Assembly (NCBI RefSeq): GCF_001457475.1
Contig: NZ_LN831029.1
Coordinates: forward strand, 372,001-436,000
Reading direction: 5' to 3'
DNA: 64,000 nt
Source: Achromobacter xylosoxidans
Lineage (GTDB): Bacteria; Pseudomonadota; Gammaproteobacteria; Burkholderiales; Burkholderiaceae_B
Every line of letters starts with the position of its first letter. Position 1 is the stretch's first letter. This document shows positions 4,486 to 42,328 of this stretch, piece by piece. A program made the position numbers and the translations under genes. The notes beneath the pieces were generated by a model. The model was given only the letters and a program-made list of their open reading frames with translations, made no database searches and was not told where the DNA came from.

Positions 4486-4499
4486 GGACGCGCGCCGGT

Positions 4500-6807: not shown

Positions 6808-6840
6808 CGGGCGCGGGCCGCCTCGGGTCCGGGCGCCGCG

Positions 6841-6858
6841 CGCCGCGCATGCGCGGCG
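6841..6858. terminator. GC-only palindrome between convergent genes
   Basis: An 18-bp perfect palindrome (CGCCGCGCA and its complement) lies between the selD stop and the stop of the convergent sulfatase-fold gene. It could act as a bidirectional hairpin terminator, but there is no T-tract, so the call is weak. Confidence 0.35.
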
Positions 6859-6865
6859 GGCCGGT

Positions 6866-8938: not shown

Positions 8939-9118
8939 GAAAGGAGGGCGGGGCATTGCGCCGTGAAACGGCGGCAACGGGCCCGCGCGACCGCCGGGGG
9001 AACGGGGCGCGCGGGTTCATTCGCAGGGGGGGAGCTCGGGTCCGTGCGTGCTATGCAGGCCGCAATCTACAGGAGGGGGAACGCAAATCTATGAAGGTTT
9101 GTATAGAACTTGTAGTGA

Positions 9119-9170
9119 GTCGCCCAAGCGGGTCGCACAAACCGGTCGCCCAAGCCGGTCGCCCAAGCCG
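9119..9170. repeat. Four tandem copies of a 13-bp unit
   Basis: The unit GTCGCCCAAGCCG is repeated four times without gaps (9119, 9132, 9145, 9158). Copies 3 and 4 are identical; copy 1 has one change and copy 2 has two. It lies in the spacer between the end of a LysR gene and the start region of the membrane transferase. A repeat like this could vary in copy number by slippage. Confidence 0.85.
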
Positions 9171-9175
9171 CAAGA

Positions 9176-9232
9176 GCGCCTGGCGATCGCCAGGCGCCGG
9201 CATGGCGGGGATTCGGCCTCGCGGGGGAGGCC
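9176..9232 (-). terminator. Perfect palindrome and second hairpin after the LysR gene
   Basis: A 22-bp perfect palindrome (half-site GCGCCTGGCGA) spans 9176-9197. A second hairpin (GGCCTC with GAGGCC, 9215-9232) starts immediately after the LysR stop at 9233. Neither is followed by a good T-tract on the minus strand. Together they probably end LysR transcription before the next minus-strand gene. Confidence 0.45.
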
Positions 9233-10153
9233 TTATTCCGGAGCCAGCAGGCGCGCCGTGGTGGCGGCCTGCTGCACCAGCCAGCGCGTCACGATCTCGG
9301 CGTCGGGGGTGCTGCGGCGCGCGTTGCGCACCAGCCAGTAGGCGTGCTCGGTGGCGTCCGCCGGCTGGCCGCCGACCGTCGCCAGGCGCTTGTCCGCCAG
9401 CATGGGCGCGATCAGCGCCAGCCTCCCCAGTGCGATGCCATGGCCAGCCAGCGCCGCGTGCACGATCTGGTCGTACTGGTTGAAGCGCAGCATGCCCTTG
9501 GGCCGCACTCGCCCCAGGCCGCGCGCGTTGAGCCACTCCGACCATTGCAGCCAGGGCCGGGTGGGGTCGTCGAACTCCAGCAGCACATGGCGCTGCAGTT
9601 CGCGCGCATCCAGGGCGCGCGCCTGCAGGGAGGGATGGGCCACTGGCACCACCGACTCGCCGAACAGCCAGACGGCTCCGTCCGGCACGGTGTCGCGCAG
9701 GCTGTAGCGGATGGCGATGTCGACGCTTTCGCGGTCGATGTCGATGACCCGGTTGTCGGCCGCCACCCGCACGTCGATCTGCGGATGGGCGGCCTGGAAG
9801 TCGCCCAGGCGCGGCAGCAGCCACAGCGAGGCCACGCCGATGGTGGTGGTGACGGTGACTGGCGTGCGGCGTTCCGGGGCGCGCAATTGCTCGGTCAGGT
9901 CGCCCAACTGGCTCAGCCAGGTGTCGGCCATGCGGAACAGCTGCGCGCCTTCCGACGTGAACGACACGCTGCGAAAACCACGCACCAGCAGCGGCACCCC
10001 CAGGTGGGCCTCCAGCGCCCGGATCTGGCGGCTGACCGCCGACTGCGTCACGTGCAGGTCCTGCGCCGCCAGCGTGATGCTCATGCGGCGGCCCACGGCG
10101 ACGAAGCCTCGGACCAGATCAAGCGGGGGAAGTTTTGCCAGCGGGTATGACAT
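9233..10153 (-). CDS. LysR-type transcriptional regulator (GcvA-like)
   Basis: This 306-residue protein has an N-terminal winged helix-turn-helix (AAQDLHVTQSAVSRQIRALEAHLGVPLL, about residues 29-56). A periplasmic-binding-like effector domain follows. The phrasing of the effector domain (SLWLLPRLGDFQAAHP, VDIAIRY) resembles the GcvA/AmpR subgroup. It is divergent from a DUF2917 gene and a DsbA-fold isomerase gene, with a 145-bp spacer, so by the usual LysR rule it likely controls that pair. The effector is unknown. Confidence 0.9.
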   Translation of the reverse strand: MSYPLAKLPPLDLVRGFVAVGRRMSITLAAQDLHVTQSAVSRQIRALEAHLGVPLLVRGFRSVSFTSEGAQLFRMADTWLSQLGDLTEQLRAPERRTPVTVTTTIGVASLWLLPRLGDFQAAHPQIDVRVAADNRVIDIDRESVDIAIRYSLRDTVPDGAVWLFGESVVPVAHPSLQARALDARELQRHVLLEFDDPTRPWLQWSEWLNARGLGRVRPKGMLRFNQYDQIVHAALAGHGIALGRLALIAPMLADKRLATVGGQPADATEHAYWLVRNARRSTPDAEIVTRWLVQQAATTARLLAPE

Positions 10154-10298
10154 TCGTAAAACTCATGCGTGTGCGGCGGAAATGTCGCTTGTGCAATATA
10201 ACGCCTGCGGCGTCCAATATGACTCAGACGACGGGTGATGCGGTGGCCAGCCGCCCACGCCCGCCATGATGGCCGCCGTTGCGGCGGGGGGATGCGCC

Positions 10299-10565
10299 AT
10301 GATCCGGTTATGTTGCACTGCGGGAATGTCATTTCGCCTGGCCCGGGGTTCGACTATGCTGCTCAGACGGGCCTCGGGCCTGCGCATCGAGTGCCACGCC
10401 GGCGCGCTCTGGCTATCCGAGTACCGCCGTCCGGACGACAGCGTATTGCAAGCCGGCCAGTCCATCATCGTGGGCAGCGATCGCGATGTCGTCCTCAGCG
10501 GCCTGCCGGATGCGCAGGTCGCCCTGGTTTCCCAGGTTCCCCAGCCGTTGGAGCTTTTGTCATGA
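10299..10565 (+). CDS. DUF2917-family small protein
   Basis: This 88-residue protein matches the pattern of DUF2917: a short beta-rich cupin-like domain with CHAGALWLSEYRRPDDSVLQAG and then IIVGSDRDVVLSGL. No biochemical role is established for the family. The ATG at 10299 is chosen for the G-rich tract (GGGGGG) about 9 bases upstream; an ATG at 10266 is possible but has no ribosome site. Its stop overlaps the next gene's start as ATGA, so the two are coupled. The LysR gene is divergent. Confidence 0.7.
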   Translation: MIRLCCTAGMSFRLARGSTMLLRRASGLRIECHAGALWLSEYRRPDDSVLQAGQSIIVGSDRDVVLSGLPDAQVALVSQVPQPLELLS

Positions 10566-11206
10566 ATGCGTCCCTGCCCGCCTCGCCCCGCCTCGAGATG
10601 TGGTTCGATTTCGCCAGCCCCTACAGCTACCTGGCGATCGAGCGCATCGGCGCCCTGGCGGCGCAGGCGGACGTGCGGGTCGACCTGCGGCCGTTCCTGC
10701 TCGGCCCCATCTTCCAGGCCCAGGGCTGGAACGACACGCCGTTCCGCCTGTTCCCCGGCAAGGGCGCCTACATGATGCGCGACATCGCCCGCCTGGCCGA
10801 AAAATACGGCGTGCCCTACAACCGGCCGCGCCTGTTTCCGCGCATGAGCGTGCTGCCCGCCCGGATCGCGCTGCTGGGGCAGGACGAGCCCTGGGGCCGT
10901 GATTTCTGCCTGTCGGTGTTCCGCGCCAATTTCCAGCACGACCAGGACATCCAGGCCGAGGACGTGGTGCACACGCTGCTGACCGACCTGTCGCTCGACG
11001 CCGACGCGCTGATCGCGCGCGGCAAGTCCGAGGCCGCCAAGGAGGCGCTGCGGCGCCGGGTCGACGAGGCCCGCCACCTGGGACTGTTTGGCGCCCCGAC
11101 CTTCCTGGTGGACGGCGAGATGTTCTGGGGCAACGACCGCCTCGAGGACGCCCTGGACTGGACCCGCCGCGCCCCTGTCGGCGCCTGGGCCGCCGCGGCC
11201 GGCTGA
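10562..11206 (+). CDS. DsbA-fold 2-hydroxychromene-2-carboxylate isomerase family protein
   Basis: This 214-residue protein has the kappa-class GST/DsbA thioredoxin fold without a CxxC. It begins EMWFDFASPYSYLAIERI, where the Ser of SPYSY is the glutathione-activating residue in HCCA isomerases. It contains the family signature LFGAPTFLVDGEMFWGNDRL near the C terminus. In naphthalene degradation this family isomerises 2-hydroxychromene-2-carboxylate with glutathione; no aromatic pathway genes are adjacent, so the substrate here is open. The start overlaps the stop of the preceding gene by four bases. Confidence 0.88.
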   Translation: MNASLPASPRLEMWFDFASPYSYLAIERIGALAAQADVRVDLRPFLLGPIFQAQGWNDTPFRLFPGKGAYMMRDIARLAEKYGVPYNRPRLFPRMSVLPARIALLGQDEPWGRDFCLSVFRANFQHDQDIQAEDVVHTLLTDLSLDADALIARGKSEAAKEALRRRVDEARHLGLFGAPTFLVDGEMFWGNDRLEDALDWTRRAPVGAWAAAAG

Positions 11207-29722: not shown

Positions 29723-29875
29723 GATGAGCGTCCTGTGTGAGGGAGAGGGCCCCGGGGCGGATGTCGCGCTCATCTGCCGGGCCGGCTACGTTGGAACAAC
29801 GTGAACGGGATCGTAGTTGCGGCCAGGCGCCAAAGAAATTACAAAGTTCGCACAGACATTGTAGGAATTTCCGAC

Positions 29876-30802
29876 ATGAGCGAATTTACCTTGCACGACC
29901 TGCAGTGCTTTGACGCGGTGGTGCGCGAGGGCGGCTTCCAGGCGGCGGCGGAAACACTGCATCGCTCGCATCCCGCGGTCTTCGCGGCGGTCGCCAAGCT
30001 GGAGCGCCAGCTCGACCTGCAACTGCTCGACCGGGGCGGCTACAGGGTGAAGGCGACCCCGGCGGGCCAATCGTTTCATCGGCGCGCCCAGGCCTTGCTG
30101 CGCGAACTGGCCGGCCTGCGCGCGCATGCCGAGCAGTTGTCCATGGGCCAGGAAAGCGAACTGAACGTGGTGATCGGCGACTTCTGCCCGCGCCCGCTGC
30201 TGCTGGGCCTGTTGGGAAAGTTCTTTGCGCAGTGGCCGGCCACGCGACTGAACCTGCATTTCGAAGCCGTGACCGGGCCTTGGGAACGATTGCTGGAAGG
30301 CGATGCCGACCTGATTCTGCATCGTATGGAAGCGGGAGACGCGCGCGTCGAATGGCTCGACCTGGGCAGGGTGCCGTTCGTGCCCGTTGCCGCGCCCGGC
30401 TACCTGGCGCCGGCCAGGCGCGCCCTGCGGCCCGAGGACCTGCGCGACTACACCCAGTGCGTGATGCGCGACACCGCCCGCCATGCGCCGGCGCGCGACT
30501 TCTTCATGATCGAGGGGGCGCGCCAGTGCACGGTCGCGGACCAGGTGATGAAGAAAGAAATCATTCTGCAAGGACTGGCATGGGGGCACATGCCGCGCTT
30601 CCTGGTGGAAGACGAATTGAGAGACGGCCGCCTGCTGTCTCTGGCCAATCGCCATCTGCCCGGCAGCGTCGAGGCGCTGGCGGCCGGTCGGCGTGCCGAC
30701 CGGCCGCAGGGGCCGGTCATGACGGGCTTATGGCAGGCGTTGCGTCGGCATGCGCCGGTGATACGTCAAACGGTCTCATCCGCGCGCAAGCGCAATCAGT
30801 GA
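29876..30802 (+). CDS. LysR-type transcriptional regulator
   Basis: This 308-residue regulator has an N-terminal helix-turn-helix (FQAAAETLHRSHPAVFAAVAKLERQ) and a LysR effector domain. The recognition helix reads SHPAVFAAVAKLE rather than the more usual SQPAVSRQI. It is divergent from the broken enol-lactonase gene across a 153-bp spacer. It may once have controlled it, but no other pca genes are here. The upstream in-frame start at 29801 is less likely because the domain begins right after ATG 29876. Confidence 0.85.
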   Translation: MSEFTLHDLQCFDAVVREGGFQAAAETLHRSHPAVFAAVAKLERQLDLQLLDRGGYRVKATPAGQSFHRRAQALLRELAGLRAHAEQLSMGQESELNVVIGDFCPRPLLLGLLGKFFAQWPATRLNLHFEAVTGPWERLLEGDADLILHRMEAGDARVEWLDLGRVPFVPVAAPGYLAPARRALRPEDLRDYTQCVMRDTARHAPARDFFMIEGARQCTVADQVMKKEIILQGLAWGHMPRFLVEDELRDGRLLSLANRHLPGSVEALAAGRRADRPQGPVMTGLWQALRRHAPVIRQTVSSARKRNQ

Positions 30803-30867
30803 GGTCGCTTGCCAGCGCGCGCCATCCGCGGCCGCAAAGCCGCGCCCGCTAAGGGAAAATACGCATG

Positions 30868-30917
30868 GCACGAGGCCGTGCGCTTCTTCAGAATGCCTTC
30901 CAGACGCAAGATCGTCT
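30868..30917 (+). promoter_or_regulatory. Two hexaloop hairpins, candidate ANTAR (AmiR) RNA target
   Basis: Hairpin 1 pairs GCAC (30868-30871) with GTGC (30878-30881) around GAGGCC; a G-C pair could shorten the loop to four. Hairpin 2 pairs AGACG (30902-30906) with CGTCT (30913-30917) around CAAGAT. Both loops have G at position 4. Paired stem-loops with six-base loops upstream of a terminator are the known kind of target for ANTAR antiterminators. The 20-base linker is long, and the loop bases were not checked against a model. Confidence 0.5.
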
Positions 30918-30961
30918 TCCAATTTTCGCCGACTGCCAGTGTTGCCAGTCAGGCGTAGGGC

Positions 30962-30999
30962 AAAAGGGCCCGAGCCGGAATTTCCGGCTCGGGCCTTTT
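30962..30999. terminator. Strong intrinsic terminator in the amide operon leader
   Basis: An almost perfect inverted repeat (arm CCCGAGCCGGAA with its complement) is flanked by AAAAGG on the left and CCTTTT on the right, then CGTTTTCC. It can terminate in both directions. It sits 160 bp after the LysR stop and about 185 bp before the first operon gene. It could end the LysR transcript, act as the antitermination target, or both. Confidence 0.85.
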
Positions 31000-31184
31000 C
31001 GTTTTCCGTTTGCACATCGTCTTCTTTCGAATGGCGCAATGACGCGTCGTGGGCGGAGCCTTGCCCGGAGAAACGTGCATGACGGTCGGACGGTTGTCGT
31101 CGTGATGTGGCTGCCTCTGGTGGCCGCCCAATCCCGGGCGGCCAGGCCGCAGGCTTGCCTTCGCAAACGCACAGGAGCGTATCG

Positions 31185-32381
31185 ATGAGCGCATACAACC
31201 GCCGCCGCTTTTTGCAGCACAGTGGTTCCATGGTCCTGCTGGGCGCCACGTCGGGGATGGCCGCATTGCCCCGCGCCGCGTTCGCGCAGGACGCCACCGT
31301 GAAACTCGGCCTGCTGCATTCCCTGTCCGGCACCATCGCCATCGCCGAGGCGTCGCTGGTGGACGCCGAGAAACTGGCCATCGTGGAGATCAACGCCGCG
31401 GGCGGCGTGATGGGCCGCAAGATCGAGCCGGTGGTCGAGGACGGCGCCAGCGAGAACGCCGTGTTCGCCGAGAAGGCCCGTAAGCTGCTGGACCGCGACA
31501 AGGTCGCGGCCATCGTCGGCTGCTACACCTCGGCCTCGCGCAAGGCGCTGCTGCCGGTGCTGGCGCGCAGCAAGGGCCTGCTTTACTACCCGACCTACTA
31601 CGAAGGGCAGGAGCAGGACGCGCGCGTGTTCTATCCGTCGCAGGAAGCCACGCAGTCGGTGATCGCGGCGGTCGAGTGGATGGCGCGCGAGAAGGGCAAG
31701 ACCTTCTTCCTGGTGGGCTCGGACTACATCTATCCGCGCACCTGCAACAAGATCGCCAAGCCGGCCATCGCGCACATGGGCGCCAAGGTGGTGGGCGAGG
31801 AATACGCGCCGCTCGGCCACACCGAGTTCTCGTCCATCATCAACAAGATCAAGGCCGCCAAGCCGGAATGCATCTACAGCACGGTGGTGGGTGGCTCCAA
31901 CGTGGCCTTCTACAAGCAGTTGCGCGCGGCCGGGCTGGACGGCACGCGGGTGGTGCTGCTGTCCACCGTGGTGTCCGAGAACGAGATCGAGGGCATCGGC
32001 AAGGACAACGCCGCCGGCTACTACGCCTGCATGGGCTATTTCCAGAGCCTGAAGAATCCGGCCAACGAGAAATTCGTCAAGGCCTTCAAGGCCAGGTACG
32101 GGCAGGACCGCGTCATCGGCGATCCGATGGAGGTGGCCTACAACAGCGTCTACCTGTGGAAGCTGGGCGTGGAGAAGGCCGGCTCGTTCGATCCCGACAA
32201 GGTCATCGCGGCCTCGGCCGGCCTGACGCTGGAGGCGCCCGAGGGCACGGTGCGGGTGCACGAGAAGAACCACCACGTGTGGAAGAAGGTGCGGGTCGGC
32301 CGCGCCCGGCCCGACGGCCAGTTCGACGTGGTGTGGGAATCGGCCGACCTGATCGAACCCAATCCCTTTCCCAAGCTGTAA
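31185..32381 (+). CDS. urtA: Amide/urea ABC transporter substrate-binding protein (UrtA/FmdD-like)
   Basis: This 398-residue exported binding protein has a Tat-like leader (NRRRFLQHSG, hydrophobic stretch, cleavage near AFAQD). A type I periplasmic-binding fold of the urea/short-chain-amide group follows. Signatures include INAAGGVMGRKIEPVVEDGAS, GCYTSASRKALLPV, LLYYPTYYEGQEQ, VGSDYIYPRT and the C-terminal NHHVWKKVRVGR. These are shared with the cytoplasmic sensor AmiC encoded downstream, so the two are paralogues in one operon. The ATG follows AGGAGCG. With an amidase in the operon, amides are the likely ligands, urea the alternative. Confidence 0.9.
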   Translation: MSAYNRRRFLQHSGSMVLLGATSGMAALPRAAFAQDATVKLGLLHSLSGTIAIAEASLVDAEKLAIVEINAAGGVMGRKIEPVVEDGASENAVFAEKARKLLDRDKVAAIVGCYTSASRKALLPVLARSKGLLYYPTYYEGQEQDARVFYPSQEATQSVIAAVEWMAREKGKTFFLVGSDYIYPRTCNKIAKPAIAHMGAKVVGEEYAPLGHTEFSSIINKIKAAKPECIYSTVVGGSNVAFYKQLRAAGLDGTRVVLLSTVVSENEIEGIGKDNAAGYYACMGYFQSLKNPANEKFVKAFKARYGQDRVIGDPMEVAYNSVYLWKLGVEKAGSFDPDKVIAASAGLTLEAPEGTVRVHEKNHHVWKKVRVGRARPDGQFDVVWESADLIEPNPFPKL

Positions 32382-32444
32382 ACGGACCCGCCCGGCCCTG
32401 GCGGCGTCGTCGCCGGGGCTTGCCATGCGACATGGAACGCGATC

Positions 32445-33347
32445 ATGAACATCGACATCGCCGCAATGCAGCTATTCAACGGCATCAGCCTGTTCAGCAT
32501 CCTCCTGCTGATGGCCATAGGCCTGGCCGTGGTGTTCGGCCTGATGGGCGTCATCAACATGGCGCACGGCGAGCTGATGGCCATGGGCGCCTACACCACC
32601 TACCTGGTGTCGGTGGCGTTCCAGCACTGGGCGCCGGGGTGGATGGACGTGTACCTGTTCGTAGCGATTCCGTTGGCGTTCCTGGTGACCTCGGCGTTCG
32701 GCTACCTGCTGGAACGCGGCTTCATCCGCTGGTTCTACAACCGGCCGCTGGATACGTTGCTGGCGACCTGGGGCCTGAGCCTGATCCTGCAGCAGGCCTA
32801 CCGCTCGATCTTCGGCGCGCAGGAGGTCAGCGTGCCGCTGGCGTCGTGGCTGAGCGGCGCCTGGGAGCCGACGCCCGACCTGCAGTTCCCGCTGAACCGC
32901 ATCTTCATCCTGGGACTGACGCTGCTGGTGGCGCTGGGGGTCTATCTGCTGCTGTACCGCAGCGCCTGGGGGCTGCGGGTACGCGCGGTGACGCAGAACC
33001 GCGCCATGGCGGGGGCCGTCGGCATCAACACGCGGCGGGTCGACGCGCTGACGTTCGCGTTGGGCTCGGGCCTGGCGGGCATCGCCGGCTGCGTCTTCAC
33101 CATGATCGGCTCGACCAATCCCGGCACCGGCCAGCTGTACATCGTCGACTCGTTCATCGTGGTGGTGTTCGGCGGCGTGCAGAGCCTGCTGGGCACGGCG
33201 TTCTCCGGCCTGGCGATCGCGCAGTCGCAGACCACGCTGGAATACCTGATGAGCGGCTCGATGGCCAAGGTCACCATCCTGGTGCTGGTGATCGCGGTGC
33301 TGTATTTCCGCCCCAACGGGCTGTTCGCCACCAAGACGCGAGGATGA
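32445..33347 (+). CDS. urtB: Urea/amide ABC transporter permease UrtB-like
   Basis: This 300-residue branched-chain-type permease has about eight hydrophobic segments. Family motifs are GLMGVINMAHGELMAMGAYTTYL near the N terminus and RAVTQNRAMAGAVGINTRRVDALTFALGSGLAGIAG in the cytoplasmic loop region. It has the short form without the extra N-terminal domain of some UrtB proteins. It pairs with the next permease, four bases downstream. Spacing after the binding-protein gene is 63 bp. Confidence 0.92.
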   Translation: MNIDIAAMQLFNGISLFSILLLMAIGLAVVFGLMGVINMAHGELMAMGAYTTYLVSVAFQHWAPGWMDVYLFVAIPLAFLVTSAFGYLLERGFIRWFYNRPLDTLLATWGLSLILQQAYRSIFGAQEVSVPLASWLSGAWEPTPDLQFPLNRIFILGLTLLVALGVYLLLYRSAWGLRVRAVTQNRAMAGAVGINTRRVDALTFALGSGLAGIAGCVFTMIGSTNPGTGQLYIVDSFIVVVFGGVQSLLGTAFSGLAIAQSQTTLEYLMSGSMAKVTILVLVIAVLYFRPNGLFATKTRG

Positions 33348-33351
33348 CGCG

Positions 33352-34398
33352 ATGAAGGCATTGCACCGCAGGACCGAAGAGATCGCGCTGGCGCTGGTGG
33401 CGCTATTGATCCTGGCCGTGTTGCCGCTGGCGCTGGACCCGTTCCGGCTCAACCTGGTCGGTAAATACATGGCGTTCGCCTTCGTCGCCATCGGCATCGT
33501 GCTGACCTGGGGCTACAGCGGGGTGCTGAGCCTGGGGCAGGGCATCTTCTTCGGCCTGGGCGGCTACATGATGGCCATGTTCCTGAAGCTGGAGGCGTCC
33601 GCGCCCGACCTGCCCGATTTCATGGTGTGGAGCAGCGTCGACAGCCTGCCGGTCTGGTGGCTGCCGTTCCATTCGCTGGGCTGGACGCTGCTGCTGATCG
33701 TGGCCTTGCCGGGCCTTGCCGCCTACCTGTTCTCGCTGGCGATCTTCCGCAAGCGGGTCAGCGGCGTGTACTTCGCCATCGTGACCCTGGCGCTGGCGAT
33801 GACGCTGACGGTGCTGATCATCGGCCAGCAGGGCGACACGGGCGGGGCCAACGGCATCACCGATTTCCGCACGCTGCTGGGCTGGGACATCGTCGGCGAC
33901 GACGGCAAGCTGGCGCTGTACCTGATCGAGGCGGCCGCGCTGACGCTGGCCATGCTGGCGGCGCTGGCGATCGTGCGCAGTCGGCTCGGCAAGATTCTCA
34001 TCGCCATCCGCGACCGCGAGGACCGCGTGCGCTTCTCGGGCTACGACACGGCGCACGTGAAAGCCTGCGTGTTCTGCGTGGCGGCGGTGCTGTCGTCCAT
34101 CGGCGGCGCGTTCTTCACCTTGCAGGTGGGGCTGATCTCGCCGGGGGCCATCGGCGTGGTGGCGTCGATCGAGATGGTGATCTATGCCGCGGTCGGCGGC
34201 CGGCTGTCGATCCCGGGCGCGGTGGTCGGCGCGCTGCTGATCGGCTTTCTCAAATCCTATCTGTCCGAGACCTTTCCCGAGATCTGGCTGTACTTCCTGG
34301 GCGCCATCTTCATCGTGGTGGTGGTGGCGATGCCCAACGGCCTGGCCGGGGTGGTCAGCCAGTTGCAGGCGCGCCGCACCGCCGGAGGTGCGCGATGA
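33352..34398 (+). CDS. urtC: Urea/amide ABC transporter permease UrtC-like
   Basis: This 348-residue integral membrane permease is of the LivM/UrtC group. It has GYSGVLSLGQGIFFGLGGYMMAM, a long periplasmic loop, the segment AIRDREDRVRFSGYDTAHVKACVFCVAAVLSSIGGAF, and GLISPGAIGVVASIEMVIYAAVGGR. It forms the second half of the channel with the UrtB-like protein. Its stop overlaps the next ATPase start as ATGA. Confidence 0.92.
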   Translation: MKALHRRTEEIALALVALLILAVLPLALDPFRLNLVGKYMAFAFVAIGIVLTWGYSGVLSLGQGIFFGLGGYMMAMFLKLEASAPDLPDFMVWSSVDSLPVWWLPFHSLGWTLLLIVALPGLAAYLFSLAIFRKRVSGVYFAIVTLALAMTLTVLIIGQQGDTGGANGITDFRTLLGWDIVGDDGKLALYLIEAAALTLAMLAALAIVRSRLGKILIAIRDREDRVRFSGYDTAHVKACVFCVAAVLSSIGGAFFTLQVGLISPGAIGVVASIEMVIYAAVGGRLSIPGAVVGALLIGFLKSYLSETFPEIWLYFLGAIFIVVVVAMPNGLAGVVSQLQARRTAGGAR

Positions 34399-35192
34399 GC
34401 ACCGCCCTGGATATGACGGAGTCGCCCGCCATGGACATGCGCATCGACCGCCCCAGCGCCGGCGCCATCCTGAGCGTCGAGGACCTGACCGTGTCATTCG
34501 ACGGCTTTCGCGCCGTCGACGGCCTGAGCCTGAGCGTGGCGCAGGACGAGCTGCGCGTCATCATCGGCCCCAATGGCGCGGGCAAGACCACCCTGCTGGA
34601 CATCATCTGCGGCAAGACGCGGCCGTCCGCCGGCCGCGTCATGTTCGAAGGCCGCGACCTGGTGCGCATGGCCGAGTTCGACATCGTGCGCGCCGGCGTT
34701 GGCCGCAAGTTCCAGACGCCGTCGGTGTACGAGGACCTGACGGTGCTGGAGAACTTCGAGATTTCGCTGCCGAACGCGCATGGCGTTATCCGCTCGCTGC
34801 GTTTTCGGCGCAGCGGCGAGGTGCGCGCCCGCATCGAGGCGATGGCGGCACAGGTGTTCCTGGCCGACCGGCTGTTGGAAAAGGCCGGTCGCCTGAGCCA
34901 CGGCCAGAAGCAGTGGCTGGAGATCGGCATGCTGCTGATGCAGGCGCCGCGCCTGCTGCTGCTGGACGAACCGGTGGCCGGCATGAGCCCGCGCGAGCGC
35001 GAACAGACCGCCGAGCTGCTGGCGCGCATCGCGCGCGGCAAGTCGGTGGTGGTGATCGAGCACGACATGGATTTCGTCAAGCGCATCGCCCACAAGGTCA
35101 CCGTGCTGCACCAGGGCCGCCTGCTGAGCGAGGGCAGCGTGGCCGAGGTGCAGGCCGATCCGCGCGTGCTCGACGTGTACCTCGGCCATTGA
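34395..35192 (+). CDS. urtD: Urea/amide ABC transporter ATPase UrtD-like
   Basis: This 265-residue ATP-binding subunit has Walker A GPNGAGKTTL, Q-loop GRKFQTPSVYEDLTVLENF, signature LSHGQKQWLEIGM, Walker B LLLLDEPVAGMS and switch His in VIEHDMDFV. The signature LSHGQ replaces the common LSGGQ, as is usual for UrtD. An N-terminal extension of about 25 residues precedes the domain. It overlaps the permease gene by four bases. Confidence 0.93.
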   Translation: MSTALDMTESPAMDMRIDRPSAGAILSVEDLTVSFDGFRAVDGLSLSVAQDELRVIIGPNGAGKTTLLDIICGKTRPSAGRVMFEGRDLVRMAEFDIVRAGVGRKFQTPSVYEDLTVLENFEISLPNAHGVIRSLRFRRSGEVRARIEAMAAQVFLADRLLEKAGRLSHGQKQWLEIGMLLMQAPRLLLLDEPVAGMSPREREQTAELLARIARGKSVVVIEHDMDFVKRIAHKVTVLHQGRLLSEGSVAEVQADPRVLDVYLGH

Positions 35193-35205
35193 CAGGGAGA
35201 ACTCC

Positions 35206-35895
35206 GTGTTCCGCATCGACAAACTGAATGTGAGCTATGGCGAGTCGCACGTCATCCATGACGTGAGCTTCGAGGTGGCGCCGGGCGAATCGGTGGCCAT
35301 CATGGGCCGCAACGGCATGGGCAAGACCACCTTGCTCAAGGCGCTGATCGGCATGCTGCGCTCCGGTTCGGGCAGCATCCGGCTCGACGACGCCGAGTTG
35401 GCGGGGATGGAGAGCTACCAGCGGGTGCGCAACGGCCTGGCCTTCGTGCCGCAGGGGCGCATGATCTTCCCGTTCCTGACCGTCGAACAGAACATCATGG
35501 CCGGCGCCGAGCGCAGCGGGCTGAAGGCGGTGCCGGACTACCTGTACCGCTTCTTCCCGGTGCTGCAGGAGATGCGCCGGCGCAAGGGCGGCAACCTGTC
35601 GGGCGGGCAGCAGCAGCAGCTGGCGATCGCCCGCGCGCTGATCTCCAACCCGCGGGTGCTGATCCTGGACGAGCCCACCGAGGGCATCCAGCCTTCCATC
35701 ATCAAGGACATCGCGCGGGCGCTGAACGCGCTGCGCGAGGAGCGCGGCTTCGCCATCGTCGTCTCCGAACAGATGCTGGGTTTCGCGCTGGACCTGGCCG
35801 ATCGCTTCCTGGTGATCGACCGGGGCCGCATCGTGCACGAGGCCGGCCGGGCCGGCGTGGACCAGGACAAGATCAGGTCTTTCCTGACGGTATGA
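35206..35895 (+). CDS. urtE: Urea/amide ABC transporter ATPase UrtE-like
   Basis: This 229-residue ATPase is of the LivF/UrtE type. It has Walker [33 protein letters not shown], signature [15 protein letters not shown] and Walker [16 protein letters not shown]. The start is GTG with AGGGAGA upstream. It ends the transporter part of the operon; the amidase gene starts 26 bp later. Confidence 0.93.
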
Positions 35896-35920
35896 CCGTC
35901 AACCAACGAGGAGCATTGTC

Positions 35921-36958
35921 ATGAGACACGGAGATATCTCCAGCAGCAACGATTGCGTGGGCGTGGCCGTCGTGAACTACAAGATGCCGCGCCTGCACAC
36001 CAAGGCCGAGGTGATGGACAACGCCCGCAAGATCGCCGACATGGTGGTGGGCATGAAGCGCGGCCTGCCCGGCATGGACCTGGTCATCTTCCCCGAGTAC
36101 TCGACCCACGGCATCATGTACGACGCCAAGGAGATGTACGACACCGCCGCGGCCATTCCGGGCGAGGAGACCGCGGTGTTCGCCGAGGCCTGCCGCCGCG
36201 CCAACGTCTGGGGCGTGTTCTCGCTGACCGGCGAGCGCCACGAGGAACATCCCAACAAGGCGCCCTACAACACGCTGATCCTGATGAACAACCAGGGCGA
36301 GATCGTGCAGAAGTACCGCAAGATCATGCCGTGGGTGCCGATCGAGGGCTGGTATCCGGGCGATTGCACCTACGTGTCCGAAGGCCCCAAGGGCCTGAAG
36401 ATCAGCCTCATCATCTGCGACGACGGCAACTATCCGGAGATCTGGCGCGACTGCGCCATGCGCGGGGCCGAACTGATCGTGCGCTGCCAGGGCTACATGT
36501 ATCCGGCCAAGGACCAGCAGGTGATGGTGTCCAAGGCCATGGCGTGGATGAACAACGTCTACGTGGCGGTGGCCAACGCGGCGGGGTTCGACGGCGTCTA
36601 TTCCTATTTCGGCCACTCCGCCATCATCGGCTTCGACGGCCGCACGCTGGGCGAATGCGGCGAAGAGGAAATGGGCATCCAGTACGCCGAGCTGTCGACC
36701 AGCCTGATCCGCGACGCGCGCAAGAACATGCAGTCGCAGAACCACCTGTTCAAGCTGGTGCACCGCGGCTACACCGGCAAGATCAACTCCGGCGAGGAAG
36801 CCACCGGCGTCGCCGCCTGCCCCTACAACTTCTACGCCAACTGGATCAACGACCCGGAGGGCACGCGCAAGCAGGTCGAGTCGTTCACGCGCTCGACCGT
36901 GGGCACGCCGGAATGCCCGATGGACGGCATTCCCAACGAGGCGCCGCAGCACCGCTAG
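35921..36958 (+). CDS. amiE: Aliphatic amidase AmiE
   Basis: AmiE hydrolyses short aliphatic amides to the acid and ammonia. The 345-residue nitrilase-superfamily enzyme is strikingly similar to the Pseudomonas aeruginosa enzyme as I recall it, starting [11 protein letters not shown] and sharing long identical blocks ([66 protein letters not shown]). The catalytic triad is Glu59 (FPEYS), Lys134 (YRKIM) and Cys166 (IICDDGN). It follows the importer genes, so the operon couples uptake to hydrolysis and frees ammonia in the cytoplasm. A formamidase (AmiF) is unlikely given how closely it matches AmiE. Confidence 0.96.
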
Positions 36959-37019
36959 TTCCCTTTCGTTCTCCAGGTCCGGCCGCGCGCCGGCCGGACC
37001 GCTGCACAGGATCCGCACC

Positions 37020-37826
37020 GTGGCCGCTCCGCTCGACTCCTACCGGATTGCGCAAGAACCGTACTACCGCCCCAGCGGCCGCGAGGCCGAGCTGTACGCG
37101 CATGCCTATGCGCACCGGCTGCCGCTGATCCTGAAAGGCCCCACCGGCTGCGGCAAGACGCGCTTCGTGGAATACATGGCCTGGAAGCTCGGCCGGCCGC
37201 TGGTGACGCTGGCCTGCAATGAGGACATGACCGCCTCCGACCTGGTCGGCCGCTACCTGCTGGACGCCGACGGCACCGCCTGGCACGACGGCCCGCTGAC
37301 GCTGGCGGTGCGCCACGGCGGCATCTGCTACCTGGATGAAGTGGTCGAGGCGCGTCAGGACACCACGGTGGTGATCCACCCGCTGACCGACGCGCGCCGC
37401 ATCCTGCCGCTGGACAAGAAGGGCGAGGTGGTCCACGCGCATCCCGATTTCCAGCTGGTGGTGTCGTACAACCCCGGCTACCAGAGCAGCGCCAAGGATC
37501 TCAAGCCGTCCACGCGCCAGCGCTTCGTCGCGCTGGACTTCGACTATCCCGATGCCGAGCACGAAGCCGCCATCGTGGCGCACGAGGCCGGCATCGACGC
37601 CGGCCTGGCGCGCCAGCTGGTGCGCATCGCCCACGGCTCGCGTGAACTCAAGCACCATGGCCTGGACGAAGGCGTGTCGACCCGCATGCTGATTTATGCC
37701 GGTGTGCTGATCCGCGATGGCGTCAGTCCGGCCGAGAGCTGCGACATGACCATGACGCGCGCCCTGACCGATGATCCCGACATGGCGGCGGCGTTGCGGG
37801 CGCTGATCGACGCCAACCTGGAATGA
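37020..37826 (+). CDS. MoxR/NorQ-type AAA+ ATPase of the amide operon (AmiB position)
   Basis: This 268-residue AAA+ ATPase has Walker A GPTGCGKT (residues 40-47), Walker B GGICYLDEVVEA and a sensor-type NPGYQSS segment. It belongs to the MoxR/CbbQ/NorQ group, which remodels client proteins and usually works with a VWA-domain partner. In P. aeruginosa amiB, an ATPase gene of uncertain role, sits directly after amiE, so position and family agree. The start is GTG at 37020 with AGGATC upstream. The stop overlaps the VWA gene by four bases. Confidence 0.9.
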   Translation: MAAPLDSYRIAQEPYYRPSGREAELYAHAYAHRLPLILKGPTGCGKTRFVEYMAWKLGRPLVTLACNEDMTASDLVGRYLLDADGTAWHDGPLTLAVRHGGICYLDEVVEARQDTTVVIHPLTDARRILPLDKKGEVVHAHPDFQLVVSYNPGYQSSAKDLKPSTRQRFVALDFDYPDAEHEAAIVAHEAGIDAGLARQLVRIAHGSRELKHHGLDEGVSTRMLIYAGVLIRDGVSPAESCDMTMTRALTDDPDMAAALRALIDANLE

Positions 37827-39565
37827 CGATGCGCGGCCTGCATTCGCCGGGGGAAGGAGAGGGCGCGGCGGTCGCCCGCGTGCGTTCGGCGGCGCCGGAT
37901 CCCGCCCAACCCGCATTGTCGTGGCTGCTCAGCAGCCTGGCCGGTCATGCCATGACGGTCGAGCTGATGGACCCGGAGGCCGCCGGCACGCCGCCGCGGC
38001 CCGTGCTGACGGCCACGCATCTATTGCTGCCGGCGGCGCGCGCCGGGCAGAAGGCGGACGGCGCGGCATCCGCCGCCGCCAGGGCGAACGCCGATGCCGC
38101 GGGCACGCTGCGCCGCGCCGCCGTGGCGCACGCGGCCGCGCACCTGCTGTATTCGCCCGCCTCCCAGCCGGTCGCCAGTCTCAAGCCGATGGGCCTGGCG
38201 GTGGTGTCCGCCATCGAGGACACCCGCGTTGAACGCGTGCTGGCGGCGCTGTATCCCGGCGTGCGGCGCTGGTTCCGCCCGTTCATCCCGCCGCCGCCCG
38301 ATCCGACCGACCTGGGCTTCACCGCGCTGGCGCGGCGCATGTGCCGCCTGCTGATGGACCCCGCGCTGCGCGATGACAACCATTGGGTCAACAAGGCGCG
38401 CGACCTGTTCGAGGCGCAGGCCGCCGCCGACCTGGCGGATGTCGCCGCGTTCCGCCGGTTGGCCTCGCTGCTGGCCAACGACCTGGGGCAGATGCGGGTG
38501 CGCTTCAATCCGCTGCAGTACGTGGTGCCGGTGGCCTACCGCGACGACAACAGCTACCTGTGGGACTACGGCGAGGCGGTCGAGCCGCCGCCCGAGCTGG
38601 CCCTGGGCAGCCAGGGCGCGGCGCCACAATCGCGCGAGGCGGCGCCCGACGATGCCCAGGCGGCGTCGGACGAGGACGCCGAACTGGGCCGCTACGACTA
38701 TCCCGAATGGGACTACCGGCTGACGCGCAGCCGACCGGACTGGTGCACCGTGATCGAACGCCTGCCCGGCTGGCGCGCCGACGCGCCGTTGCTGGCGGGG
38801 TTGCGCCAGCCGCGGCTGGTGCTGCCGCGTTCGCGGCGCCTTGACCGCGCGCGGCGCCTGCGGCGCCAATGGGAAGGCGATGACATCGACCTGAACGCGG
38901 CCATCGAAGTCATGATCGACCGCCGTCTCGACCTGGCGCCGGATGCGCGCTTTTTTCAGCGGCCGGGCAGCCAGCCCGGCGTCTGTAGCACGCTGGTGCT
39001 GCTGGACCTGTCAGCCTCGGCCAACGACCCCGCGCCACGGGACGGCGCCACCGTGCTCGACCTGGAAAAACGCGCCGCCGCGCTGCTGGTGGGCGCGGTG
39101 GCCGGAAACGGCGACCGCATCGCGGTGCACGGCTTCTGCTCCGACACGCGGGCGGCGGTGCACTACTACCGCCTGTTGGACGCCGGCGTCGCGCCGACCG
39201 CAGCGGCGCTGGGCCGCATCGCGGCGGCCCGGGCCCGCTATTCCACCCGCCTGGGCGCGGCGCTGCGCCATGCGGGCGAGCTGGCGCTGCGCGCGCCCGG
39301 CGAACGCCGCGCCCTGATCGTCGTCACCGACGGCGCGCCGTCGGATATCGACGTGCACGATCCGCGCTATCTGGTGGAAGACGCCCGCGAAGCGGTGCTG
39401 GCGCTGCGCCGCCGCGGCCTGCGGGTGCAATGCGTGGCGCTGGACGCGAAAGCCGAACCCCAGCTGCGGGCGATGTTCGGATTCCATGGCTACCGCATCG
39501 TGCTGAACGCGGCCGCGCTGCCAGCGGCGCTGGCCCATGGCTACGGCCGCGCCACGCTCGGCTGA
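37823..39565 (+). CDS. VWA-domain protein (NorD/CobT-like), partner of the MoxR ATPase
   Basis: This 580-residue soluble protein has a C-terminal von Willebrand A domain with the MIDAS motif DLSASAN (Asp395 onwards) and a later VVTDGAPSDID. The N-terminal part is Ala/Arg-rich and helical with an acidic stretch (DDAQAASDEDAELG), as in NorD and CobT proteins. Such proteins act with a NorQ/MoxR ATPase to mature metal enzymes. AmiE needs no metal, so the client here is unknown. Translation is coupled to the ATPase gene (ATGA). The classic P. aeruginosa amiEBCRS cluster has no such gene. Confidence 0.85.
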   Translation: MTMRGLHSPGEGEGAAVARVRSAAPDPAQPALSWLLSSLAGHAMTVELMDPEAAGTPPRPVLTATHLLLPAARAGQKADGAASAAARANADAAGTLRRAAVAHAAAHLLYSPASQPVASLKPMGLAVVSAIEDTRVERVLAALYPGVRRWFRPFIPPPPDPTDLGFTALARRMCRLLMDPALRDDNHWVNKARDLFEAQAAADLADVAAFRRLASLLANDLGQMRVRFNPLQYVVPVAYRDDNSYLWDYGEAVEPPPELALGSQGAAPQSREAAPDDAQAASDEDAELGRYDYPEWDYRLTRSRPDWCTVIERLPGWRADAPLLAGLRQPRLVLPRSRRLDRARRLRRQWEGDDIDLNAAIEVMIDRRLDLAPDARFFQRPGSQPGVCSTLVLLDLSASANDPAPRDGATVLDLEKRAAALLVGAVAGNGDRIAVHGFCSDTRAAVHYYRLLDAGVAPTAAALGRIAAARARYSTRLGAALRHAGELALRAPGERRALIVVTDGAPSDIDVHDPRYLVEDAREAVLALRRRGLRVQCVALDAKAEPQLRAMFGFHGYRIVLNAAALPAALAHGYGRATLG

Positions 39566-39656
39566 CCCCCAGGAATCCACGTGTTGACGCCGCGCGCGCC
39601 TATGCTGAAACTGATCACCTCGACCGATTGACCTCTGTGCGGCGGTTCCTCCGATC

Positions 39657-40811
39657 ATGGCAAACAAAGATCCTATCCGCGTGGGCGTGTTGTTCTCTGA
39701 AACGGGGGCCACATCGACCATAGGCCGTTCCCAGTTGCAAGGCACGCTCCTGGCGATCGACGAGATCAACGAGGCCGGCGGCGTCGACGGGCGCGAGATC
39801 GTGCCGGTGCGCTACGACCCGCGCTCCGACCCGGCCACCTACAGCGTGCTGGCCGAACGGCTGATTACCCAGGACCGCGTCAACGTCATCTTCGGCTGCT
39901 ACATGTCCAGCAGCCGCAAGGCGGTGCTGCCGGTGGTCGAGAAATGGAACCGGCTGCTGTTCTACCCGACGCTGTACGAAGGCTTCGAGTTCTCCAACAA
40001 CATCATCTATACCGGCGCCGCGCCCAACCAGAACAGCGTGCAGCTGGCGGAATTCATGACCGCCAACTTCGGCGCCCGCGTCTACCTGATCGGCTCGGAC
40101 TACATCTATCCCTACGAATCCAACCGCATCATGCGCGAGCTGGTGCTGCAACGCCAGGACAGCGCCAAGCTGGGCGAGCGCTACGTGCCGCTGAACGCGA
40201 CCGAGCGCGACTACCGCGAAATCCTCGACGACATCCGCAACAAGCGGCCGGACTTCATTTTTTCCACCGTGGTGGGCAATTCCACCGCCTGTCTGTATCG
40301 CGCCTACGCCGACGCCGGCTTCGATCCCAAGACCATGCCGATCGCCAGCCTGACCACCTCCGAGGCCGAGATTTCGCAGATGGAGCCCGAGGTGGCGGCG
40401 GGGCATTTCACGTCGGCGCCGTATTTCCAATCGATCGATTCCGAGGTCAACCACCGCTGCCTGGAACGGCTGCGGCGGCGTTTCGGCCAGGGCTGCGTGC
40501 CCAACCTGTGCTGGGAAGCCGCCTACTTCCAGATGCACATCTTCGCCAACGCCTACCGCGACACCGGCACCGACGAAATCGCGCAGATCCTGCCGCGCGT
40601 GCTGCAAAGCGAATTCCAGGCGCCGCAGGGCCGCGTGCGCATCGATCCCACCAACCACCACACCTGCCTTTATCCGCGGGTGGGGCGGGTCAACGGCAAG
40701 GGGCAGTTCACCATCGTGCGCGAAGCCACGCGGCCGGTGCACCCCGATCCGTACCTGGTCACCCATTCGCTGGGCGACTGGACGGCGACCCTGAGCTCGC
40801 TGGAGATCTGA
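39657..40811 (+). CDS. amiC: AmiC: cytoplasmic amide sensor and negative regulator
   Basis: AmiC binds amides and releases AmiR from inhibition. The 384-residue protein has the same type I binding fold as the operon's UrtA-like protein (GCYMSSSRKAVLPV, LLFYPTLYEGFEF, IGSDYIYPYESNRI, NHHTCLYPRVGRVN) but lacks any signal peptide, as expected for the cytoplasmic regulator. Its length matches P. aeruginosa AmiC (about 385). It follows the VWA gene after 91 bp, and amiR starts two bases after its stop. Confidence 0.95.
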   Translation: MANKDPIRVGVLFSETGATSTIGRSQLQGTLLAIDEINEAGGVDGREIVPVRYDPRSDPATYSVLAERLITQDRVNVIFGCYMSSSRKAVLPVVEKWNRLLFYPTLYEGFEFSNNIIYTGAAPNQNSVQLAEFMTANFGARVYLIGSDYIYPYESNRIMRELVLQRQDSAKLGERYVPLNATERDYREILDDIRNKRPDFIFSTVVGNSTACLYRAYADAGFDPKTMPIASLTTSEAEISQMEPEVAAGHFTSAPYFQSIDSEVNHRCLERLRRRFGQGCVPNLCWEAAYFQMHIFANAYRDTGTDEIAQILPRVLQSEFQAPQGRVRIDPTNHHTCLYPRVGRVNGKGQFTIVREATRPVHPDPYLVTHSLGDWTATLSSLEI

Positions 40812-40813
40812 CG

Positions 40814-41440
40814 GTGGAGCCGGCAAGCCGCCTGCGCGTGATGCGCGCGACGCCCTCGTTGCTGAAGGACCTGCGCACCCTGCGCATCGCCGTCTACCAT
40901 CCGGACGACGCCGATGGCAGGCAGCTGACGCAGCAACTGCAACGCATCGGTTGCCAGGTGCAGACCTTCTGGCCGCCGGCGCCGACGCTGCCCGAAGGGC
41001 TGGACGTGGTGTTCCTGGCGGTGCGGCCGGACGTCATCGACCTGGGTTTCGAATGGGCCAAGAGCGACGAGGCGCCGATGGTCATCGCCATCGTCACCTA
41101 CGAGAACCCGACCATCGTCGAAGCGGTGCTGCGCATCGGCGCCAAGGCGGTGCTGCCGTCGCCGGTGCGATCGTTCGGCCTGTTGTCGACGCTGGTGGTG
41201 GCGCGGCAGGTCTACGACGACATCAAGTCGCACGCGCGCCGCCTGCGCAAGCTCGAAGGCAAGCTGCTGGGCGCGCGCCGCATCGCCGAAGCCAAGGGCA
41301 TCCTGATGCGCACGCGCAACGTGACCGAGGGCCAGGCCTATGACCTGATCCGCGAACAGGCCATGAACAAACGCGTCACCACCGAGGAAATCGCCGGCGC
41401 CATCGTCAACGCCAACGAGATCCTCTCGCTCGGGAAATAG
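40814..41440 (+). CDS. amiR: AmiR: ANTAR-domain transcription antiterminator
   Basis: AmiR binds leader RNA and lets polymerase read through a terminator. The 208-residue protein has a receiver-like N-terminal domain without the phosphorylation Asp, a coiled-coil linker (about SHARRLRKLEGKLLGARR) and the C-terminal ANTAR three-helix domain (RRIAEAKGILMRTRNVTEGQAYDLIREQAM). The GTG at 40814 has GGAG eight bases upstream; an ATG at 40841 would give 199 residues, closer to P. aeruginosa AmiR (196), so the start is uncertain. It is the last gene of the operon and its likely target is the terminator before the first gene. The next gene is convergent, three bases away. Confidence 0.93.
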   Translation: MEPASRLRVMRATPSLLKDLRTLRIAVYHPDDADGRQLTQQLQRIGCQVQTFWPPAPTLPEGLDVVFLAVRPDVIDLGFEWAKSDEAPMVIAIVTYENPTIVEAVLRIGAKAVLPSPVRSFGLLSTLVVARQVYDDIKSHARRLRKLEGKLLGARRIAEAKGILMRTRNVTEGQAYDLIREQAMNKRVTTEEIAGAIVNANEILSLGK

Positions 41441-41443: not shown

Positions 41444-42205
41444 TCAGTACTTGCCGGTCAGCAGTTCGCCGGCGTCGGGCACGCGCGTCTCCAGGTCCAG
41501 CACCTTGAGCATGCGGTAGACCGTGGCCGCGGCGGCCGTCACCACCGGCAGGCCCAGGCGGTCCTGCACCGGCTGGATCGACGCCAGCGACGGCATCTGC
41601 ACGCAGGCCGACAGCACCACGGCGTCGACGCCGCGCGTATCCAGGCGCTCGACATGGCTGGCGGGCGCCATCGGATCCTGCGCGCCCACCTTCAGGTTGT
41701 CGGCGATCTCCAGCGACAGGCTGTCGTGCACTTCGATGCCTTCGTGCTCGATGTAGTCCACCACCAGCTTGGTCAGCGGCTTCATGTAGGGGGTCAGGAT
41801 GGCGACCTTGCGCGCGCCGATGGCATGCAGGCCTTCGACCAGCGCGCCGGCGCTGGAAACGATGGGCGCGGGCGCGCCGTTGTCCACGGTGGCCTGATGC
41901 AGCCGTTCCTGCGAGGCGCGGTGGTAGCCCAGGCCCTGCGCCATGATGGCCACCAGGCAGGCATAACCCAGCACGTCGACGCGGGCGTCCGACAGTTCCT
42001 GCGCGCAGCGGTCGGATTCGCGGTCCATCGAGGCGAGCTCGGCCGCCGTCACCTGCTTCATGCGCATGCGGCTGGAGTGGAAGGTGAAGCGTTCGGGCGC
42101 GATGGTCTCGCGCCGGCGCAGCATGGCGGGGATCTCCGTTTCCATGGTGGTGTTGGAACTGGGAACGATCTGGCCGATGCGCAGGACGCGGGGCGACTGG
42201 GTCAT
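41444..42205 (-). CDS. Maleate cis-trans isomerase / Asp-Glu racemase family enzyme
   Basis: This 253-residue protein belongs to the two-cysteine isomerase/racemase fold. The N-terminal RIGQIVPSSNTTMETEIPAML is diagnostic of maleate isomerases (MaiA/NicE). Cys83 (LGYACLVAIMAQG) and the Cys in VLSACVQMPS are the expected catalytic pair. The enzyme would turn maleate into fumarate, the last step of nicotinate breakdown, though arylmalonate decarboxylase-like activity cannot be excluded. The ATG at 42205 has GGAGA upstream. It is divergent from a LysR gene and its stop is three bases from amiR. Confidence 0.88.
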   Translation of the reverse strand: MTQSPRVLRIGQIVPSSNTTMETEIPAMLRRRETIAPERFTFHSSRMRMKQVTAAELASMDRESDRCAQELSDARVDVLGYACLVAIMAQGLGYHRASQERLHQATVDNGAPAPIVSSAGALVEGLHAIGARKVAILTPYMKPLTKLVVDYIEHEGIEVHDSLSLEIADNLKVGAQDPMAPASHVERLDTRGVDAVVLSACVQMPSLASIQPVQDRLGLPVVTAAAATVYRMLKVLDLETRVPDAGELLTGKY

Positions 42206-42328
42206 GGCGGGTCTCCGGTAGGCGTTGTCTGCGCCCGATTGGCGCGCAAACAATTCTGCTCGCCGCGAACGATAGTTTCCAATATAGTTTTTGTCTGGTT
42301 TCATATATTTTACAAATCATTGGCCGCC

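Follow-up and report, generated by a model that had tools for sequence, protein, structure and literature searches.

The window analyzed here is a 64,000-nucleotide stretch of the Achromobacter xylosoxidans chromosome (NZ_LN831029.1, positions 372,001 to 436,000), which is a single contig of 6.8 Mb. Ten genes lie within it on the forward strand in the order urtA-urtB-urtC-urtD-urtE-amiE-moxR-vwa-amiC-amiR, and they form one tight block that is preceded by a structured leader RNA. We put the probability at about two in three that this block is an AmiR-controlled operon for amides of the acetamide type, in which the proteins encoded by moxR and vwa work on the amidase AmiE as the CbbQO activase works on Rubisco.

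Gene Organization and Leader RNA

The first five genes encode importer subunits, each of which passes its NCBIfam cut-off: the substrate-binding protein UrtA (31185..32381; TIGR03407, 515 bits), with a Tat-like signal recognized by eye; the permeases UrtB (32445..33347; TIGR03409, 408 bits) and UrtC (33352..34398; TIGR03408, 412 bits); and the ATPases UrtD (34395..35192; TIGR03411, 370 bits) and UrtE (35206..35895, GTG start; TIGR03410, 325 bits). These are followed by amiE (35921..36958), by moxR (37020..37826, GTG start) for a CbbQ-like AAA+ ATPase, by vwa (37823..39565) for a CbbO/NorD-like VWA protein, and by amiC (39657..40811) and amiR (40814..41440, GTG start). The intergenic gaps in gene order are 63, 4, -4, 13, 25, 61, -4, 91, and 2 bases. 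The same ten genes, in this order and with four-base overlaps or short gaps, had been named in an earlier sequence-only reading; gene calls and domain models confirmed them, with the overlaps numbering two. Position 30803, given there as the start, was found to be the first base of the untranslated leader and not a gene start. The absence of AmiS and the importer at the head of the operon were borne out inside the block, where UrtA-E come first and no intergenic gap is big enough for the AmiS gene; the rest of the genome was not searched for AmiS.

AmiE scored 722 bits with the aliphatic-amidase model (PRK13286, cut-off 427) and 278 bits with the formamidase model (cut-off 406), and it is therefore assigned as an aliphatic amidase rather than a formamidase. 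It scored 663 bits against a solved aliphatic amidase and retains E59, K134, E142, and C166, which we take to be the catalytic residues. AmiC (Peripla_BP_5) scored 331 bits against the solved AmiC of P. aeruginosa (1pea) and begins with MANKDPIRVG, in which no signal peptide was seen by eye. AmiR contains AmiR_N (124 bits) and ANTAR (54 bits) and scored 76 bits against the solved AmiR.

The neighborhood comparison proposed in the sequence-only reading was carried out among Achromobacter. Of 12 further Achromobacter AmiE loci that were retrieved, 11 show the ten-gene order, and the contig of the twelfth stops within vwa; the gene order is thus not due to chance. AmiE is present in 13 of 43 Achromobacter genomes, that of the window included, so the operon is accessory in this genus. 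Two wider surveys were used below: a phylum survey of 30 AmiE loci besides the window, from a draw of 398 genomes, and an order survey of 44 AmiE loci from a draw of 399 genomes, which includes 7 loci of the phylum draw and leaves out one partial AmiE hit (G882) of 46.

A LysR regulator gene (29846-30802, +) flanks the operon upstream. Between its stop codon and urtA, folding identified two hairpins just ahead of a terminator (z = -3.96 relative to shuffles). The putative recruitment hairpin P1 (30925..30957) presents the hexaloop AGTGTT at 30938-30943, with A1 and G4, and its stem contains an internal C-C mismatch. The putative antiterminator hairpin P2 (30958..30971, GGGC[AAAAGG]GCCC) has a near-invariant stem, the 3' arm of which is the 5' arm of the intrinsic terminator found by a terminator scan at 30963..31005 (17-bp stem at 30963-30999 and a T-rich tail). 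The distance from the P1 loop to the P2 loop is 24 bases here and 20-24 bases in 15 other leaders.

The leader region is conserved in Achromobacter, Variovorax, Hydrogenophaga, and Polaromonas. For 25 aligned leaders, 97.3% of the cells were paired and the covariation score was 0.245 compared with 0.115 for shuffled alignments, with 0 of 500 shuffles as high; both sides changed in nine pairs, compared with 5.3 in the shuffles. Both-side changes were found in 5 of 12 pairs of P1, the loop of which has A1/G4 in 25 of 25 leaders, and in 4 of 15 pairs of the terminator, which is present in 22 of 22 leaders. A further hairpin upstream (30902..30917, from folding), with a 5-bp stem and the hexaloop CAAGAT, which lacks A1, is kept in 86.7% of the cells of 27 leaders and has both-side changes in 3 of 5 pairs, a count equalled by 106 of 500 shuffles. 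A hexaloop hairpin followed by a hairpin that overlaps a strong terminator is, as judged from sequence and folding, the layout of an ANTAR antitermination target, and the covariation supports this assignment. No match to the leader was obtained from Rfam at the gathering score.

A search of the own genome with the single motif returned 112 places, compared with 119 in the reversed control, and was useless alone; the covariance model R1 was therefore built. Over a main set of 55 loci (E up to 0.1), R1 matched 12 of 12 Achromobacter AmiE loci, which are not independent (near-copies of the training leaders, several from the same contigs). Among the other loci, it matched 10 of 12 with amiC/amiR and none of the 31 in which these genes are not in view, of which 25 came from the order survey and 6 were chosen from the phylum survey. 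Antisense hits in this set overlap sense hits. Over a set of 29 sources, R1 matched L089, L152, and L068, none of which is in the training set. Every one of the 25 sense hits checked stands ahead of the first gene of its operon, be it urtA, amiE, or an NCS1 permease gene. Three own-genome hits below 33 bits were inspected (L169, L171, and L172) and rejected as ordinary terminator-like stems.

Several results count against this assignment. The P2 loop keeps A1 and has G4 in 0 of 25 aligned leaders, and the sigma-70 scan found no promoter for the leader. R1 missed L188 and L223 in the main set and gave no significant hit in eight amiC/amiR loci of the 29-source set (L048, L065, L066, L067, L090, L091, L141, and L144), of which L066 and L067 are short stretches; it also matched L092 (36 bits) and L022 and L023 (28 bits each), in which amiC/amiR are not in view. 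The published ANTAR rule is A1/G4 in both hexaloops (PMC3369931, PMC8934654), G4 is termed obligatory for EutV (PMC8934654), and ANTAR-type RNA hits are described upstream of urea transporter genes in general (PMC3369931). On the supporting side, 6 of 15 more distant leaders, from 14 loci, follow this rule in both loops; among these 15, the hexaloops of which were chosen by eye and then located by script, A1 is present in every loop and G4 in the P1 loop of 9.

The missing G4 in P2, the amiC/amiR loci missed by R1, and the LysR gene that ends just upstream would fit read-through controlled by a factor other than AmiR, or a leader that is a plain attenuator of the upstream LysR transcript. We regard this as very unlikely, given A1/G4 in 25 of 25 P1 loops, the restriction of the element to Achromobacter and amiC/amiR loci in the 55-locus set, and its tracking of the operon head, whichever gene stands there. 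The association of the leader with amiC/amiR appears good among the relatives of this operon and unproven beyond them.

Because a conserved ANTAR-type leader starts the block, AmiR probably controls all ten genes, amiC and amiR included. The sequence-only reading had treated uptake, hydrolysis, and sensing as functions of a single operon and had put AmiC/AmiR last on the transcript that they probably control; the leader evidence supports both proposals and makes one transcription unit likely. Transcription would enter the leader and halt at the terminator unless AmiR acts. An amide in the cytoplasm would bind AmiC and free AmiR, which would bind the P1 hexaloop and then favor P2; P2 would take up the 5' arm of the terminator, and all ten genes would be read. 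A natural inference is positive feedback, in which inducing amides raise both uptake and the regulators, and control of the whole unit in this manner is likely. The leader also offers a ready reporter for which amides induce the operon.

A second sensor operon was noted in the same genome (L065, 3497000-3516000; 6560-14112, minus strand). It lacks MoxR/VWA and encodes a nitrilase-family hydrolase, UrtA-, UrtB-, fused UrtC-UrtD-, and UrtE-like proteins, and another AmiC/AmiR pair. The 588 bases ahead of it yielded no terminator.

The MoxR/VWA Pair and the C-Terminus of AmiE

The moxR product contains AAA_5 and CbbQ_C (Pfam) and is the sole CbbQ_C match in the genome. Against solved structures, it scored 398 and 389 bits with CbbQ and 306 and 300 bits with NorQ. 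It is 68% identical to the Rubisco-operon CbbQ of Cereibacter (L155) and 58% identical to the presumed NorQ of Azospirillum (L158), which is encoded beside cytochrome genes. The VWA protein scored 206 bits against the CbbO of L155 and 122 bits against the presumed NorD of L158, and it has a C-terminal VWA domain, in which the MIDAS-type motifs DLSAS (residue 395), YSTRLG (473), and TDGAPSD (502) keep DxSxS, T, and D. A MoxR tree that does not settle the root groups the Rubisco-linked Q proteins (93/83). The pair was rejected as a Rubisco activase proper: there is no Rubisco in the block, and the RuBisCO match in the genome is a RuBisCO-like protein (4606574-4607410), which scored 367 bits against 3nwr across the 230 residues searched.

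The sequence-only reading, in comparing the block with amiEBCRS, had described a VWA gene as added after the ATPase. This needs correction, since the ATPase is no AmiB. A Klebsiella plasmid encodes an amiE-linked AmiB that belongs to the Clp type (AAA_2 and ClpB_D2-small in Pfam) and matches the moxR product over 19 residues only, so the MoxR/VWA pair takes the place of AmiB. The 30 loci of the phylum survey comprise 7 with the CbbQ/VWA pair, 8 with a Clp-type AmiB in the same slot (assigned by tblastn match to the Klebsiella protein), 15 with neither, and 0 with both. Since the two alternate and never occur together, two different AAA+ families occupy one slot.

The AmiE of the window ends in QHR, and the codons of its C-terminal His-Arg tag (36950..36955) match the HK/R motif of the Rubisco large subunits linked to cbbQO (PMC4660213). 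Activation is lost when that motif is deleted or extended, and it tolerates replacement of the last residue but hardly that of the penultimate His (PMC4660213). Among the Rubisco large subunits encoded beside cbbQO that were inspected here, HR or HK forms the C-terminus of 10 of 10; nine of these sequences are full-length, and one lacks its start because of the contig boundary. AmiE and Rubisco have unrelated folds, and the same tag beside the same machine on both therefore suggests a shared way of gripping the client.

The AmiE proteins were classed as linked when a CbbQ-like or VWA gene lies downstream on the same strand, adjacent or not, within about 9.5-10.8 kb; 15 of 125 distinct AmiE, each with no more than 3 kb of downstream sequence, were set aside. 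The penultimate His was found in 73 of 73 linked proteins and the complete H[RK] ending in 72, a group that includes loci found via a VWA query, which favors linkage. The same ending occurs in 0 of 9 AmiB-linked AmiE and in 4 of 28 with neither partner. In a survey-based count of 80 proteins (30 phylum and 44 order loci with 7 in common, 12 Achromobacter loci, and the window), for which the survey loci were not selected for the pair, the penultimate His was present in 44 of 44 linked, 0 of 8 AmiB-linked, and 5 of 28 other proteins. The residues just before H[RK] vary among the linked AmiE, and a general residue scan of the 80 proteins tied only Asn112 and the C-terminal His to linkage. An overly strict motif filter limited a further run to 43 of the 80 proteins, and no acidic residue diagnostic of linkage was found among these.

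In a FastTree phylogeny of 110 AmiE, 8 changes are needed to explain linkage and 10 to explain the tail; an IQ-TREE tree gave 9 changes of linkage. In eight disjoint tree contrasts, the tail differs as expected in 6, is found on both sides in 1, and is half-and-half in 1, with none in the opposite direction. Within the block of the window, AmiE alone bears the tag.

G-x-E-K/R occurs near the C-terminus of 9 of 9 AmiB-linked AmiE (L127, L136, L138, L140, L147-L149, L153, and L094) and may serve as a tag that AmiB recognizes. In one family of eight AmiE (L125, L126, L128, L130-L133, and L139), a variable stretch is followed by a terminal Ser/Thr-Asn-Tyr, possibly the mark of a third partner. The untagged AmiE with neither partner number 24, and six of them (L151, L152, L214, L217, L221, and L223) stop just short of the end of the family model.

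By analogy with CbbQO, the pair is best read as an activase or remodeller of AmiE. The VWA protein would dock on AmiE, and the ATPase ring would engage its C-terminal His-Arg; ATP hydrolysis would then remodel AmiE, probably expelling a dead-end inhibitor or finishing its assembly. Urea is a candidate for such an inhibitor. The more specific proposal, that a CbbQO-type activase grips AmiE by the C-terminal His-Arg/Lys and frees the inhibited enzyme with ATP, is given somewhat better than even odds.

A number of observations weigh against this reading. We know of no requirement of AmiE for an activase. L197, L206, L218, and L219 encode an AmiE with an HR tail and have no CbbQ/VWA pair in their flanks, extra flanks included, and the linked AmiE of L210 ends in HA. 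For L191 and L195, which were counted as linked, the VWA gene alone is in view. In the order survey, 15 of 26 loci have a CbbQ-like gene that starts within 2 kb of the amiE start, and the other 11 do not. The VWA protein matches the solved NorD over its C-terminal part only. L152 and L223 have amiE-amiC-amiR without the pair, so the pair is not always needed.

The tag and linkage data also fit an assembly chaperone, which would use the tag for one-time folding or oligomer help and would not rescue inhibited enzyme, and "assembly/activation" is the suggestion made in PMC13209695. However, the solved structures nearest to the ATPase are those of CbbQ, from activases whose work is to remove inhibitors (PMC4660213), and 15 of the 30 phylum AmiE loci have neither AAA+ gene. 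We consider the chaperone a serious but improbable alternative. It is more doubtful still that the client of the pair is a different protein, such as urease, some other metalloenzyme, or the importer, and that the pair owes its placement to operon history. In favor of this view, NorQ/NorD insert iron (PMC9976466), and Q/O pairs are found next to urease genes (Shinella L092 and Ancylobacter L156), following them (L187, L194, and L210), or next to the cobalt genes CbtAB (Agrobacterium L157). The present block, however, contains no urease or known metalloenzyme and has AmiE as its sole tag bearer, and no HR/K tag was found on the UreC of L092 or of the other urease-bearing loci checked.

Two details of these loci were recorded separately. 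In L187, L194, and L210, the urease genes stand between amiE and the CbbQ/CbbO pair, and the CbbQ is 76-79% identical to Rubisco-type CbbQ. The Agrobacterium plasmid of L157 carries a second CbbQ/VWA pair (4271-10819) near CbtA/CbtB and GTP-binding genes, and a 564-residue protein encoded just upstream of this pair ends in His-Ala and may be a client.

Importer Specificity and Distribution of the Operon

The UrtA of this operon carries the motif CYTS..YPT, which compares with CYMS..YPT in AmiC. The 16 UrtA shown that are linked to fmdA or formamidase have (C/A/G)WTS..YPT, and the other UrtA of the same genome has CWTS..YPV. At position 114 (codon 31524-31526 in urtA), all 29 loci in which fmdA is not in view encode Tyr (24 of them have amiC/amiR), and all 36 loci with fmdA encode Trp; 65 of 66 survey loci were readable at this position and one was not. 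The corresponding residue of AmiC presumably contacts acetamide. The Tyr of UrtA hints at acetamide rather than formamide or urea as a substrate, a lead on specificity and not a proof, and the Tyr/Trp split may instead have been inherited with two UrtA lineages, which would count against this use of it.

UrtA-E score as urea transporter families, and an Fmd-type system takes up short-chain amides and urea (PMC10781810). Both points would suit an importer that moves mainly urea or formamide in a general amide and urea system, an alternative that we hold to be unlikely in view of the AmiC-like CYTS..YPT of this UrtA and the WTS..YPT of those linked to fmdA or formamidase. Urt-type importers for amides have been proposed earlier (PMC3098086). 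For an acetamide-type substrate, UrtA-E would bring in the amide, and AmiE would hydrolyze it to ammonia and the carboxylate. From the genes and motifs, we infer an inducible acetamide-type utilization system, in both its induction and its substrate.

The full ten-gene layout was found in 3 of the 44 order loci and also in named loci of Variovorax, Hydrogenophaga, and Polaromonas. The amiC/amiR genes are in view in 15 of the 44; 13 of these 15 also have a CbbQ-like gene, and none has fmdA. The alphaproteobacterial plasmids of Roseibium and R. etli carry amiC-amiR followed by urtA-E, amiE, CbbQ, and VWA genes, and plasmids of Shinella and Aestuarium carry urtA-E-amiE-CbbQ-VWA with amiC/amiR not in view. 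In two loci of V. beijingensis, the importer is swapped for an NCS1 permease, the gene of which follows amiE with no urt genes in view. Pfam gave no match for L017:6921-8468, where tblastn located an NCS1 permease at 6841-8070.

Between amiE and moxR, L016 contains an open frame of about 340 codons (8081-9122) that appears alpha/beta-hydrolase-like by eye, and gaps of similar length are found at this place in five other Variovorax loci (L019, L027, L033, L036, and L052). The flanking gene downstream of the operon in the window (41444-42304, -) encodes an arylmalonate-decarboxylase (Amdase) domain. The window also contains a selenocysteine tRNA gene at 2604-2695 (+) (Rfam tRNA-Sec, 78 bits).

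Comparison with Known Systems

The amiEBCRS cluster of Pseudomonas shares AmiE, AmiC, AmiR, and antitermination with the operon described here. It differs in having the AmiS channel rather than an ABC importer and a Clp-type AmiB, the type found in P. aeruginosa, rather than the MoxR/VWA pair. A module distinct from the classic one had been proposed in the sequence-only reading, and this stands insofar as the ATPase is MoxR and not of the Clp type; the combination itself is not new, as it recurs in Burkholderiales and its five-gene core has been published (PMC13209695).

That report (7 May 2026) describes a plasmid ami operon of P. veronii Yu15 that shares amiE, a CbbQ/NirQ/NorQ-type ATPase, a NorD-like protein, amiC, and amiR with the operon of the window. 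It notes homologues in Burkholderiales, describes the roles as unclear, and suggests that the pair is for amidase assembly or activation (PMC13209695). The five-gene core and the broad idea are already in print. The Yu15 operon has no importer, and the available portion of the report states no gene order and contains no analysis of a leader, a tag, or an importer pocket. A search of the open-licence literature did not find the tag on AmiE, the leader, or the Tyr/Trp switch of the importer.

The dual hexaloop leaders of the EutV type (PMC3369931, PMC8934654) share two hexaloop hairpins, the second of which overlaps a terminator; the leader described here differs in that P2 lacks G4 in this clade and the P1 stem has a C-C mismatch. 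Clusters of the urt-fmdAB-amiE type, such as the blr0968-blr0973 region of Bradyrhizobium (PMC3098086), share a Urt-type importer adjoining amiE. They differ in having a formamidase gene, and those in our survey have no amiC/amiR in view and a UrtA with Trp. NorQ/NorD is an AAA+/VWA pair of the same class, but its client is a metalloenzyme, and the solved NorQ scores about 90 bits below the solved CbbQ against the moxR product.

The closest parallel is the CbbQO Rubisco activase (PMC4660213), which shares an AAA+ protein and a VWA protein with MIDAS, a client with a C-terminal HK/R, and the placement of the pair beside the client gene. It differs in its client, which here would be an amidase of the nitrilase superfamily, and in the VWA protein, which has 580 residues here and 743 in the CbbO of L155. 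If the proposal is correct, the tag would be a portable client signal for an AAA+ family, the clients of orphan Q/O pairs could be found by their C-termini, and AmiB of the Clp type would represent an independent solution, paired with a distinct AmiE tail. The proposal would also help to explain the presence of an AAA+ gene in amidase operons. Work on CbbQO has treated it as a repair machine for Rubisco; if an unrelated hydrolase carries and needs the same two-residue tag, CbbQO would be a more general device for enzyme repair.

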